Shown here in pieces: positions 8,031 to 35,372 of a DNA stretch of 35,372 nucleotides. Below the pieces are notes generated by a model. The model did not search any database, was not told the origin of the DNA, and worked only from the letters and a program-made list of their open reading frames with translations. Position 1 is the first letter of the stretch. Every line of letters starts with the position of its first letter. The position numbers were made by a program, and so were the translations under genes. The DNA comes from Peptoniphilus timonensis JC401 (GTDB lineage Bacteria; Bacillota; Clostridia; Tissierellales; Peptoniphilaceae): the NCBI RefSeq assembly GCF_000312025.1, contig NZ_HE978593.1, forward strand, positions 113,307 to 148,678. The letters run 5' to 3'.

Positions 8031-8057
8031 CAAAATTACAAATAAAAATTATAATAC

Positions 8058-8148
8058 CTTATTGAGAGTGGTGGAGTGAATGGGCACTGTGAAACCCGGC
8101 AACCTAGTTGGTGCTAAATCCCACAGATTTTTATCTGGAAGATGAGGT
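8058..8148 (+). promoter_or_regulatory. SAM-I riboswitch (S box)
   Basis: The conserved S-box blocks are visible in order: CCTTATTGAGAG with GGTGGAG, CTGTGAAACCCGGCAACC, GGTGCTAAATCCCACAG, and GAAGATGAGG at the end. The P1 helix pairs CCTTAT (8058-8063) with ATGAGG (8143-8148), with one G-U. TGAGG (8144-8148) can instead pair with CCTCA (8158-8162) of the terminator, giving the antiterminator. When S-adenosylmethionine is bound, P1 forms and transcription should stop before metK. Confidence 0.95.
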
Positions 8149-31103: not shown

Positions 31104-31193
31104 TATTAAAGATGGAAATCGTTTTATACTTTAAACCAATCTTAATAAATCTGATTTTGATTTCAACATTTTGTATTGATTGAGGGGTCTTTG

Positions 31194-33170
31194 ATGAAGA
31201 GAATAAAAATAATAATTTCATTAATTTTAATATTTATAGGAATAATACTTGTTGGAGAATACGGTATAACATACCTTGATAATTTTTCCAATGATATGCC
31301 CAATACTACAATTATTTATCAGCCTGGAATGGATCATGAAAAGATGAAAGAGGAAGTAGAGGAAGCAGCTCGTAAATTTGATGTAGAATTCTTTGTGGTT
31401 AAACAAGATGTCATAAGTACAAACGAGAATAACTTAATTGTTTATAGCTCTAGCCCAAAGGTAGAAAAATATTTATCAGAAGAGAAGGGTATTTACGAAA
31501 GGGAATATACTAGCTTATTTTTTGGAAAAGTGAATCTTTCCTATGACGATTATAAAAATATTTCTTCCTCAGACCTAGAAGTCAACAATAATTATTATCT
31601 GTTTGGAAATAAAGATGATATTAAAAATTTCAAGATATCACTAATCAATAAGTATGCTGGCAATCATCCAAGATTTCCAGAAAAATCCAGAAAATTTGAC
31701 TACACTGTTTATGGACTTTGGACAATAATTTTTGCCATGTGTCTAATATTTACAGCAATTTACGTAAAAACTCGTAAAGAAGATGCCTTTATAAAAATAA
31801 TTTATGGAGAAAATAGGCTTTATTTAATATTTAAAGAAATAATAATAGACCTTATTTCTATTGTAGGCATTGGAATCCTATTTCTACAGCTTTTAAAAGC
31901 TTATACCTATACAGATTTTTATAAAAATGCCTTTTATTTAATGCTTGGTCTATTTGCTCTTATAAATTCTTTGACCTATTTTTCTTTTTATAGATTTGAT
32001 GTAGGAAAAGTCTATAAAGATAATTCTTTTGTGACTATTTCAGCCCTATATTTATTAAAAGTCATAAGCGTAAGTCTTGTTTCTCTTGCCCTTGCTATAA
32101 ATTTCCTTATGATCAAAGAGTCCTTAGACTTTATTTCTGAAGAAGATTTCTTTAAAGCACACAAAGACTACTACTATACAAATTTAGGATATATACCTAG
32201 AGAAAATTATCCGGGAGGAAGTAAAAATGTAATAGAAGATAGTTCTAGAGTAAAAGAAATTTTCTACAAAAAATACTTCAAAGAATTTGATCCTTTAGTG
32301 CTTGTAAATTTTGATAATATAGGCGATAAAGACATGGTCTTAACTAATAGAAATAGCTTAGATTATTTAAAATCTGAGATAAGTTCAATAAAGGATAAAG
32401 AATTTAAAGAAAAATTATACTATTTTATTCCTGAATCAACCAAAGAAAAAAATCAAAAGATTGAGTTACTAGATTTAAGGGTTGAGGATCATCTTGATGA
32501 AAAAGCTGTAAAAAATAAAGAAATAATCTATTATGAAGATAAGGCTAAGATAATTAATGTTGATGATTTATTGCCACTTAATAGTAAAATTAGTAAAAAT
32601 CCTATAGTTATTTTTGATAATAGAGTGCCAGAATTCGTAGAAGAAAATATTGTAGGCAATGCTTTTAGAACTACTTACGATAGGGATATCATGTACAAAA
32701 TAAAAGAAGATAAATTTAATGACTTTATTAAAGAGTATAAACTTGAGTCAGAAATTCATGGAAAGACCAATGTTTATGAAAACTATTTAGATGGTAAATT
32801 AAAGATGAGAAGACTTTTAAAAATGGAAGTCGTTATATCTTTGATATTAATAAGCTTAGAAATTATTATTCTACTTACCCTAACAAAGCTTGAATTTAGG
32901 ATAAATGCTTACAAAATTTCTCTGATGAAGATACTTGGATATAATTTCTGGGAAAGATACAAAAAATTAATTATATTTTCTATTATAGGATCTCTCTTAG
33001 CTATGATTATCTTTATCTTAATAAACCTAAAGTATAGATTAATTCCATTTGCTTATGGAATAGTAATAATAGGTCTTGTTTTTGTTATCGAACAGCTTAT
33101 TATCCATAGAGAAATAAAAAGAATAGAAAATCATAATATAGAACTGGTACTAAAAGGAGAATTTCGATGA
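31194..33170 (+). CDS. DUF1430-like bacteriocin-associated integral membrane protein
   Basis: The 658-residue protein has an N-terminal span (KIIISLILIFIGIILVGEYG), an outer domain, four spans at about 180-310 (for example YGLWTIIFAMCLIFTAIYV and LYLLKVISVSLVSLALAINF), a second outer domain, and three spans at the end (EVVISLILISLEIIILLTL and following). This layout and the partner ATPase match the DUF1430 family found next to lactococcin-972-type bacteriocin exporters. GAGGGG precedes the ATG at 31194. It overlaps the ATPase gene by 4 bases (ATGA), so the two are translationally coupled and form one transporter. No bacteriocin precursor with the known lactococcin-972 pattern is visible beside it. 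Confidence 0.75.
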   Translation: MKRIKIIISLILIFIGIILVGEYGITYLDNFSNDMPNTTIIYQPGMDHEKMKEEVEEAARKFDVEFFVVKQDVISTNENNLIVYSSSPKVEKYLSEEKGIYEREYTSLFFGKVNLSYDDYKNISSSDLEVNNNYYLFGNKDDIKNFKISLINKYAGNHPRFPEKSRKFDYTVYGLWTIIFAMCLIFTAIYVKTRKEDAFIKIIYGENRLYLIFKEIIIDLISIVGIGILFLQLLKAYTYTDFYKNAFYLMLGLFALINSLTYFSFYRFDVGKVYKDNSFVTISALYLLKVISVSLVSLALAINFLMIKESLDFISEEDFFKAHKDYYYTNLGYIPRENYPGGSKNVIEDSSRVKEIFYKKYFKEFDPLVLVNFDNIGDKDMVLTNRNSLDYLKSEISSIKDKEFKEKLYYFIPESTKEKNQKIELLDLRVEDHLDEKAVKNKEIIYYEDKAKIINVDDLLPLNSKISKNPIVIFDNRVPEFVEENIVGNAFRTTYDRDIMYKIKEDKFNDFIKEYKLESEIHGKTNVYENYLDGKLKMRRLLKMEVVISLILISLEIIILLTLTKLEFRINAYKISLMKILGYNFWERYKKLIIFSIIGSLLAMIIFILINLKYRLIPFAYGIVIIGLVFVIEQLIIHREIKRIENHNIELVLKGEFR

Positions 33171-33775
33171 TTGAAATAAAAAATATGAATAAATCCTTTG
33201 GAGACAAGGTGATTTTTAAAGATTTTAACCTAGAAATTAAAGATCAAGAATTTGTAGTATTATCGGGCAAGAGTGGTAGTGGTAAAACGACGCTTTTAAA
33301 TATAATAGGGGGAATTGAAAAAGTAGACTCTGGAGAAGTCCTTGTTGGCAATCAAGATATAACAAAAGAGAAAAATCTACTTGATTATTTTAGATATACT
33401 GTGGGATTTCTATTTCAAAACTTTGCCCTAATTGAAAGAGAGACAGTTTATGAAAACCTAAAACTTGTCAAAAAAAGATGCAGAACAGACATAAGTATAG
33501 AAGAAGCTCTGGAAATGGTGGGACTTTCTGACAAGAAGAATCAAAAAGTCTATACACTTTCTGGAGGAGAACAGCAAAGAGTTGCCTTAGCAAGACTTTT
33601 AATAAAAAAGTGCAAGTTAATATTAGCAGATGAACCGACAGGATCACTTGATAGGGAAAATGCAAATATGGTTATTTCTATTTTAAAAGAATATCAAAAA
33701 ATGGGAAAGACAGTTTGCTTGGTAACTCATGATGATTATATAAAGACTTTAGGAGATAGGGTGGTTAATTTATGA
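33167..33775 (+). CDS. ABC transporter ATPase of the lactococcin-972 export group
   Basis: The 202-residue ATPase has Walker A SGKSGSGKTTLL, Q loop FLFQNFALIERETVYENLKL, signature LSGGEQQRVALARLL, Walker [13 protein letters not shown] and H loop LVTHDD. The run YFRYTVGFLFQNFALIE closely resembles the ATPases annotated as putative bacteriocin export, lactococcin 972 group. It starts within the stop of the DUF1430-like gene and its own stop overlaps the next start (ATGA both times). Energises export or immunity by the membrane partner. Confidence 0.88.
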   Translation: MIEIKNMNKSFGDKVIFKDFNLEIKDQEFVVLSGKSGSGKTTLLNIIGGIEKVDSGEVLVGNQDITKEKNLLDYFRYTVGFLFQNFALIERETVYENLKLVKKRCRTDISIEEALEMVGLSDKKNQKVYTLSGGEQQRVALARLLIKKCKLILADEPTGSLDRENANMVISILKEYQKMGKTVCLVTHDDYIKTLGDRVVNL

Positions 33776-34227
33776 AAAAGAATTTGAAAAAAATAATAAT
33801 AGGGATAGTAGGACTAGCCTTGGCTTATTCTTTGCTATGGTTTGCAAATTCAAAATATGTTTACGCACCCTATACAAAAGAAGTTCCAAAACATGAATCA
33901 GGCTTATATGTTCTTCATGATGAAAAGACAAATTATACTTTCAATGTTAAGTCACCTGGATTCTCATCTTTCACAGGTAATCTAGGAGTTTCAAATAATG
34001 AAGGGTCTGGACTTATAATATGGCCGGGATTTTTTGGTAAAAATTATGAGTATGGTGCAAGGATAAAAGATGGGGATTCCACTTATCAAATAGAACTTGA
34101 TGAAGATATGAATATTATAGGCGAAGATGAAAACTTAAAAGAAGTTTATGAAAAAAATAAAGAGTTAATAGATAATATGTTTGAAGCAGCAGAAAAAGTT
34201 TGGAAAGTAGATTTCTCGGAAAAATAA
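33772..34227 (+). CDS. Membrane-anchored extracytoplasmic protein of the exporter operon, unknown
   Basis: The 151-residue product begins with a signal anchor or uncleaved signal (KKIIIGIVGLALAYSLLWFA) without a lipobox cysteine. The rest is a small, strand-rich domain (SGLYVLHDEKTNYTFNVKS, SGLIIWPGFFGKNYEYGARI) followed by a charged helix (NKELIDNMFEAAEKVWKVDF). I do not recognise a family. Its 4-base overlap with the ATPase gene shows it belongs to the transporter; an accessory or immunity role outside the membrane is possible. It is not a lactococcin-like precursor. A strong terminator follows. Confidence 0.75.
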   Translation: MKKNLKKIIIGIVGLALAYSLLWFANSKYVYAPYTKEVPKHESGLYVLHDEKTNYTFNVKSPGFSSFTGNLGVSNNEGSGLIIWPGFFGKNYEYGARIKDGDSTYQIELDEDMNIIGEDENLKEVYEKNKELIDNMFEAAEKVWKVDFSEK

Positions 34228-34241
34228 AGAAAATACAAAGT

Positions 34242-34277
34242 AGGCGATAGAATTTAAAAACTCTATCGCCTTTTTTT
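34242..34277 (+). terminator. Rho-independent terminator of the exporter operon
   Basis: AGGCGATAGA pairs exactly with TCTATCGCCT, followed by seven T residues. The stem could also stop transcripts of the converging small-peptide genes. Confidence 0.94.
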
Positions 34278-34284
34278 GCTTATT

Positions 34285-34407
34285 TTATTTTTTAAATTGT
34301 TTTAGAAGATTTAATATTTTAACTAATAAAACAATTTTAATCACATGCAAAATCGTATAGGGAATTAGACCAGTTAAGATTTCCATCGTTGCTTCATATT
34401 TTTCCAT
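34285..34407 (-). CDS. Small hydrophobic peptide B (40 residues)
   Basis: This short gene reads MEKYEATMEILTGLIPYTIL, then a hydrophobic stretch with HVIKIVLLVKILNLL and a basic end KQFKK. AAGGAGA stands 8-9 bases before the ATG at 34407, inside the end of peptide A's gene, so translation is probably coupled. One membrane span with a lysine-rich C-terminus resembles small membrane toxins and holin-like peptides (TxpA/BsrG type begin with a similar Tyr-Glu-x-Leu/Met pattern) or leaderless bacteriocins. It shares LT-x-x-x-P and ILN-x-LK with peptide A. Together the two genes fill most of the otherwise empty 34228-34817 region. No homolog can be confirmed by eye. Confidence 0.6.
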   Translation of the reverse strand: MEKYEATMEILTGLIPYTILHVIKIVLLVKILNLLKQFKK

Positions 34408-34411
34408 AAAA

Positions 34412-34534
34412 TCACATCTCCTTAAATATTTCTTTTAATTTATTTAATATTAAAATTAAAAGGATAATCTCAATTATGTTAAGAAGATAATGAGGCTGAA
34501 TTATTGTAAGGAATTTTATTATTTGCATTTTCAT
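34412..34534 (-). CDS. Small hydrophobic peptide A (40 residues)
   Basis: This short gene reads MKMQIIKFLTIIQPHYLLNI, then IEIILLILILNKLK and EIFKEM. A near-perfect GGAGGAG lies 7 bases before the ATG at 34534, one of the best ribosome binding sites in the window. It aligns with peptide B over the last 31 residues (FLT/ILT, P, a span ending in ILN-x-LK, then lysines), so the pair arose by duplication or is two halves of one system. Peptide B begins 4 bases after its stop. A leader of about 100 bases separates it from the promoter at 34645-34653. Function unknown. Confidence 0.62.
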   Translation of the reverse strand: MKMQIIKFLTIIQPHYLLNIIEIILLILILNKLKEIFKEM

Positions 34535-34644
34535 AAGTAAGCTCCTCCATTTTTAAATATATGTAAGTTAAAGTTCATTATTTTTTAGTTTTTAGCTTTA
34601 TTTTTAAATAAATTCATGACATATATGGTTTAATGATTTATCAC

Positions 34645-34653
34645 ATTATATCA
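34645..34653 (-). promoter_or_regulatory. Extended -10 promoter of the small-peptide pair
   Basis: On the minus strand TGATATAAT is a perfect extended -10. It is embedded in GTGAT-ATAAT-GTGAT, a direct repeat that could be a regulator site. The leader to the first start codon would be about 100 bases. Confidence 0.5.
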
Positions 34654-34817: not shown

Positions 34818-35372
34818 GTGAAAAAAACTATTAGAGATTTTGATTTTGATGATAAAACTGCCCTAGTTAGGGTTGACTTTAACGTTCCTCTAAAGGATGG
34901 AAAAGTTACAGGCGATGATAGAATTATAAAGGCTATTCCTACTATTGAGTATTTAATAGAAAATGGTGCAAAAGTTGTTCTTATGAGTCACCTTGGAAGA
35001 CCTAAGGGAGAATACAAGGAAGAATTATCTCTTGAACCAGTTGCGAAAAGAGCTGCTGAACTTTTAAATAAGGATGTTAAATTTATACCTTCAAAAGAAG
35101 TTGTAGATGAAAAAGTTATTGAAGAAGTTAAAAATCTTAAAAAGGGAGAAATTGCTCTTCTTGAAAATTTAAGATTTGTAAAGGGCGAAGAAAAAATGAT
35201 CCTGATTTTGCAAAAAAATTAGCAAGTCTAGGAGATATTTTTGTAAATGATGCCTTTGGAACAGCTCACAGAGCTCACGCATCAAATGTTGGAGTGACAG
35301 AATTTCTACCATCTTGTGCAGGTTTATTAGTTGAAAAAGAAATAAAATATTTTGAAGATGCACTTAAAAATC
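34818..35372 (+). CDS. pgk: Phosphoglycerate kinase, 5' part, one apparent frameshift
   Basis: Pgk transfers phosphate from 1,3-bisphosphoglycerate to ADP in glycolysis. The N-terminal domain is clear: [35 protein letters not shown] and [13 protein letters not shown]. The frame breaks in the A6 run at 35191-35196. As read it gives KMILILQKN and stops, while one A more continues as [20 protein letters not shown] and [14 protein letters not shown], the substrate-binding region, through to the window end. About 185 of the usual 395 residues are present. The start is GTG, after AGAGGTG. Being glycolytic and normally essential in such organisms, it is a strong sign that the indel is a sequence error. 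Confidence 0.95.

Follow-up and report, generated by a model that had tools for sequence, protein, structure and literature searches.

Do the two short reading frames that lie between pgk and a three-gene exporter operon of Peptoniphilus timonensis JC401 encode proteins and, if so, is the exporter their partner or do they form a unit of their own? We approached this question in a stretch of 35,372 nucleotides (hereafter, the window), comparing the frames and their surroundings among 14 Peptoniphilus genomes and in wider collections.

Two coupled paralogous genes

Both frames are on the minus strand, and the layout given in a preliminary description of this DNA (two frames of equal length, strong ribosome-binding sites and a 4-base gap) was recovered in full. 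The first frame, which we call pepA (34534..34412), comprises 123 bases including the stop and specifies 40 residues with one predicted membrane span, in the middle of which stands an invariant glutamate, Glu22; its Shine-Dalgarno sequence, GGAGGAG (34542..34548, minus strand), is read from the sequence. The second, pepB (34407..34285), has the same 123 bases and 40 residues, again with one predicted span, and an invariant lysine, Lys24; its Shine-Dalgarno sequence, AAGGAG (34418..34423, minus strand), sits within the final codons of pepA, and 4 bases (34408-34411) separate the pepA stop from the pepB start. The A-B order and the 4-nt gap are found at all 12 loci that we know of (the window's and 11 others), which lie beside pgk, as here, or at a second site, locus 2. 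The genes are paralogues: a search of the window's own genome with pepA returns pepB (42% identity over 33 residues, E 0.003). The initial view of related, coupled and conserved membrane peptides is thus borne out by this identity, by the coupling geometry and by the occurrence of the pair in 10 of the 14 genus genomes. The exporter operon (plus strand) ends at 34227 and does face the pair, as had been described; the distance from the pepB stop to the terminator hairpin (34271-34242), put at 8 bases, is 13.

The unit appears to have expression signals of its own. Upstream of pepA lies a likely extended -10 element (TGATATAAT, 34645..34653, minus strand), which a consensus promoter scan did not pick up; a -10-like hexamer occupies the same column at 7 of the 9 pgk-type loci, to which the promoter evidence applies (none was identified at locus 2), and in 5 of these 7 it carries the TG extension. 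The pair would then have a leader of about 104 nt. By eye, an upstream frame of about 20 codons, preceded by a ribosome-binding site, is readable in the leader of three relatives and unclear in the rest. Downstream of pepB, a terminator-like hairpin of 13 pairs (34242..34271, minus strand) separates the pair from the facing exporter operon. A scripted search found a clear hairpin beyond pepB at 10 of the 12 loci; those of G012 and G008 are weak by script, with longer-loop or overlapping inverted repeats visible by eye. The hairpin sequence varies among relatives, to the point that the window's differs even from that of its conspecific, and Rfam gave sub-threshold matches only, over the hairpin.

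Single-base details of the window genome (G000) call for care because some frames are broken there: pgk (34818-35222, plus strand) stops near 35200 and is left as a 134-aa frame, through sequencing error or in reality, where the matches in nearly all other genomes are open frames of about 400 aa; the gene next to locus 2 is also broken. Each of the two peptides of the window matches at 98% that of G012 (P. phoceensis), a genome marked as the same species. Elsewhere in the window, a SAM riboswitch lies at 8056-8148 (plus strand).

Constraint on the encoded peptides

Short frames in an AT-rich region could arise by chance, or a conserved RNA element could be misread as coding. Folding of the transcript leans towards the latter (z -2.6, with 2 of 100 shuffles folding as well, the end hairpin included), but the substitutions do not. 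Among eight sequences from the pgk locus (two of them from one MAG, with G008 excluded as too divergent), Nei-Gojobori dN/dS is 0.065 for pepA and 0.147 for pepB over 28 non-independent pairs, and at locus 2 it is 0.138 and 0.090, respectively (3 sequences, 3 pairs). Variable columns of the pgk-type genes concentrate at third codon positions (19 of 27 in pepA, p 9e-5; 23 of 36 in pepB, p 2e-4); the locus-2 counts are 9 of 12 for pepA and 13 of 29 for pepB, the latter not significant (p 0.13). Stops and the 4-nt gap are kept among loci despite divergent flanks. With dN/dS far below 1 and an excess of third-position changes, chance frames or a misread RNA element seem scarcely credible. The comparison that the preliminary description had proposed as decisive, conservation in relatives and codon bias in the substitutions, therefore returned a conserved pair with codon-like changes. 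Judged by these patterns, both pepA and pepB are under purifying selection at the protein level, from which we infer that both frames are translated.

A pair confined to one group of Peptoniphilus

Profile searches placed the tandem pair at its 12 loci in genomes of the P. harei group: P. phoceensis, P. grossensis, P. gorbachii, P. harei (two loci), P. senegalensis, P. vaginalis, P. genitalis, one Peptoniphilus MAG (counted with two contigs carrying the pair, possibly strain variants) and G008, besides the window's own. With each of the two profiles, pepA and pepB, 12 loci scored strongly, in an identical set of 10 genomes, every A with a B and every B with an A; a search with the pepB protein likewise gave matches at E <= 1 in 10 of the 14. 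No pair locus was found in the other four genus genomes (G001, G006, G007 and G009).

Beyond the genus, only weak matches came from the 130 genomes of the family, the 249 of the order and a 391-genome sample of the class (the last searched with the pepA profile only; both profiles were run on the order genomes). Among the candidates scored, eight matches outside the genus reach E <= 0.002 (2e-4 to 2e-3), of which four contain internal stops. Three-frame reading by eye revealed no tandem pair at L135, L138, L076, L059, L091, L095 or L048; the matches in G101, G110, G123 and G109 are listed as short hydrophobic frames alone. Further weak matches lie in G217, G240, G155, G497 and G606, among others. 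No relative was confirmed in viral contigs searched with both peptides, nor found in phage and plasmid records searched with pepA. Full-text searches of one open library returned no paper on such a pair.

Two sites, changing neighbours and the exporter

At the first site (G000, G012, G005, G003, G004, G010, G011 and G008) the pair is divergent from pgk. At the second (G002, G013 and P. harei) it stands between a hemerythrin-linked gene, itself without a Pfam family and adjoining a hemerythrin-domain gene, and rpmF/DUF177/ackA. The names rpmF, DUF177 and ackA, and gltX and lysS below, are assigned by sequence likeness. What follows pepB at the first site changes from genome to genome: in the window it is the exporter operon; P. 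phoceensis has a piece of a phage integrase there and P. gorbachii a tn916-type integrase gene; P. harei has genes for an ABC-2 permease and its ATPase, P. senegalensis a methionine sulfoxide reductase together with DNA methylases, and G008 gltX. Sites without the pair also exist: in G007, gltX adjoins pgk, and at locus 2 of G000, G012 and G007 the whole stretch of leader, pepA, pepB and hairpin is absent. Inspection by eye found no hidden pair beside pgk in six genomes, nor at locus 2 in nine, the G005 stretch being mostly N and not judgeable; the locus-2 anchor gene has no match in G006 and G009. On these gene maps, the two genes form a unit that stands alone and recurs at two intergenic sites unrelated to each other. 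Its patchy presence, its two sites and its variable neighbours are more in keeping with an accessory module than with a core-complex subunit.

Several other features of these surroundings were observed. The stretch between the pair and lysS is variable at L028, L030, L031 and L033, with integrase genes or pieces, an ABC-2 transporter and DNA methylases, as well as a lysS-like 3' fragment adjoining an integrase; this stretch resembles a hot spot of integration. In one MAG contig (C46, at the end of L035), the pair is followed by a hairpin-rich end that resembles an IS200/IS605 terminus. At locus 2 (L126, L127, L133, L032, L037 and L038), a TGTGA-N6-TCACA-type palindrome, with one mismatch in L038, lies beside the hemerythrin-linked gene whether or not the pair is there; it resembles an operator of the CRP/FNR family.

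The exporter next to the pair (31176-34227, plus strand) encodes three proteins: a DUF1430/bact_immun_7tm-like permease and a lactococcin-972-type ATPase, which both score under the NCBIfam cut-offs, and one of 151 aa that belongs to no family (33772-34227). In a co-occurrence test that covered the 664-aa permease and the third gene, each was present in a single genome of the 14, the window's own, against 10 of 14 for the pair. Export by the neighbouring operon, as initially suggested, fails on this count and was rejected as a partnership: since the genes searched occur in only 1 of 14 genomes, the exporter is best seen as a recent neighbour.

This failure weakens the proposal that the pair is a two-peptide leaderless bacteriocin, which would draw on the exporter. 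The passages of PMC10376788 on leaderless bacteriocins give them one to six peptides of 27-70 aa, a high pI and a net positive charge, and a need for transport and immunity genes. Two homologous tandem peptides of about 40 aa with a pI of 9.3-10 recall that description, and transporters do occur around some loci: in P. harei, genes for an ABC-2 permease and an ATPase lie 1.4-3 kb past the pair at pgk, and in P. gorbachii an ABC-type frame is seen by eye about 6 kb past it. One of 10 peptide rows also hits phrog_1625 ('involved in bacteriocin production or immunity'), though the E of 0.11 is not significant. No gene common to the mapped loci, however, looks like a transporter or immunity gene, as judged by eye from maps of nine loci and of the stretch downstream of pepB at 10, and from Pfam searches of 10 chosen neighbours. 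The peptides themselves are strongly hydrophobic (GRAVY 0.3-1.0) with a net charge of only +2 to +5 and no Trp, they have a glutamate in mid-span and they are strongly conserved between species. Thus, pepA and pepB share with bacteriocins of the enterocin DD14 kind a tandem arrangement of homologous, basic peptides, two in number and each about 40 aa long, but they differ in being more hydrophobic, weakly cationic and devoid of Trp and of a common transporter, and we regard a bacteriocin as quite improbable.

No match to a known family

Neither profile, nor its members, has a significant match in Pfam or PDB; the same is true of the two window peptides in NCBIfam and of 10 mixed rows in PHROGs, where the phrog_1625 match was the best. 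With Pfam thresholds relaxed to E 10, 10 pepB rows gave nothing and 3 of 10 pepA rows gave Histidine kinase (best E 0.041). The segment QPHYLLN of pepA (34478-34498, minus strand; QPHYLFN in relatives) is like the H-box of LytS-type histidine kinases. This identity was rejected and the match is taken as chance because the His is not conserved, being Q in P. harei at pgk and N at locus 2.

Could the pair be a type I toxin locus, with one peptide or both acting as a membrane toxin and an antisense RNA restraining the mRNA? TxpA/holin-like and Fst are known type I toxin family models. Both peptides are small and hydrophobic, with one predicted span and a charged C-terminus. Their size, single span and basic C-terminus are as in the membrane type I toxins covered in the relevant part of PMC8309996, and the inferred leader and the presence of two loci in P. 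harei also agree. No Pfam match emerged for the pepB rows and no relevant one for the pepA rows, however, and an antisense promoter, of which the preliminary description had found no clear example either, does not stand out: a plus-strand scan showed no promoter-like site (it is an insensitive scan, which missed the pair's own likely promoter too), and those antisense -10-like hexamers inside the pair that are shared by 4 or more of 9 loci lack a TG and have a -35 matching at most 4 of 6 positions. The Tyr-Glu start of pepB, which had been likened to such toxins, is not conserved, the residues being YE, YQ, YS, YT or HT. In the section of PMC8309996 on Lpt, replacing a proline of the span by Glu suppressed toxicity, an effect that its authors ascribe to the missing proline kink, such that this bears weakly on a span Glu. 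The type I scheme also has no need for two translated paralogues. Toxins of the Fst, Lpt and TxpA/BsrG kind are likewise short peptides with one span and a basic C-terminus, encoded in small units that stand alone; compared with these, pepA-pepB has two paralogues per unit, invariant opposite charges in the spans, no evident antisense RNA and no family match. A type I toxin is in our view unlikely.

Opposite charges in the membrane span

The complementary charges of Glu22 and Lys24 are the most informative feature of the pair, and one absent from the preliminary description. Both residues are invariant at 12 of 12 loci (the 10 rows of each peptide alignment and the loci outside it) and fall in a single column of the joint alignment, in mid-span. 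Both synonymous codons of each occur among the loci, so the constraint is on the residue. Glu22 is the sole charged residue of pepA between positions 14 and 30 (His aside). On helical wheels of the window peptides, an arc of 60 degrees takes in H15, N19 and E22 of A, and one of the same width Y17, H21 and K24 of B. The charges are not matched one to one: in pepB, K/R30 is a further invariant basic position, and the locus-2 pepB also has E21.

Opposite charges at the same position of the span suggest that A and B work as a matched pair, and together with the fixed order, spacing and coupling they point to two chains meant to assemble. Our preferred reading, held tentatively with a probability of roughly 0.35, is that of a two-chain, self-neutralising, membrane-active pair whose helices would be joined through Glu22 and Lys24. 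Translational coupling would probably set a fixed A:B ratio. On its own, each helix would pay a high cost for burying its charge; side by side, with Glu22 in contact with Lys24 and polar neighbours on the same helix faces (N/S19 in A; H/E/Q21 in B), they could form a neutral hetero-oligomer. With less confidence, one chain, or its excess, might perturb the membrane, with the two in balance being tolerated, in which case the two could act like a protein-protein toxin/antitoxin or a holin/antiholin. The features behind the pairing model are: (i), the coupling geometry; (ii), the protein-level selection; (iii), the likely promoter and hairpin of the unit; and (iv), the sites that lack the pair. 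Several points go against it. A Glu or Lys in a span could also serve other partners, homo-oligomers or ions. In the pgk copy of P. harei (L031), pepB starts with ATA in place of ATG and may thus be poorly made beside an intact pepA, although this genome holds a second, complete locus. Lastly, the strong conservation would equally fit a regulator.

That last possibility is a pair of small regulatory membrane proteins that would bind and tune a larger membrane protein encoded elsewhere, probably under stress. AcrZ, KdpF and CydX are small regulatory membrane proteins. Low dN/dS, a likely promoter of its own and independence from a partner gene alongside all suit such a role, and the palindrome of locus 2 lies between the pair and the divergent hemerythrin-linked gene, which hints at regulated expression there. 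The palindrome is absent from the window at up to 1 mismatch; four of the 14 genus genomes yielded no pair and the other genera searched no convincing one, and the pair has no constant neighbour, where a fixed core target predicts a steadier distribution. YohP, AcrZ and KdpF are also below 50 aa, with a single span and an unknown or regulatory role; pepA-pepB differs in being coupled paralogues with complementary charges, patchy in distribution and found at two sites. PMC11539335 and PMC12719787, on small membrane proteins, describe the few that are well studied as regulators and report frequent up-regulation in unfavourable conditions. A regulatory pair is possible, if doubtful; we place the self-neutralising pair just ahead of it because no gene common to the mapped loci looks like a transport or immunity gene and no antisense RNA is evident.

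Implications

Small membrane proteins are numerous, and most of them still lack an explanation; this gene pair is short enough for gene finders to pass over. What it offers is a duplicated pair with opposite charges at one position, with the pair-less sites of sister species as natural controls, and specific pairing of single-span micropeptides can be tested directly with two 40-residue peptides. The most far-reaching version of the self-neutralising pair is speculative, with the odds well against it: paralogues of 40 residues born from gene duplication would act as toxin and antidote, each neutralising the other within the membrane by means of one Glu-Lys bridge, and their genes would form an accessory cassette. 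A toxin/antitoxin or holin/antiholin that works in this way, between membrane proteins, would be of a new kind. Holin/antiholin pairs similarly consist of two related membrane chains, one of which restrains the other; they differ in that no endolysin is seen beside pepA-pepB, no lysis gene having been recognised by eye in the gene maps of the pair loci (integrase genes or pieces lie beyond some). Were the toxin and antidote reading true, such a cassette would be carried by a group of human-associated anaerobes.
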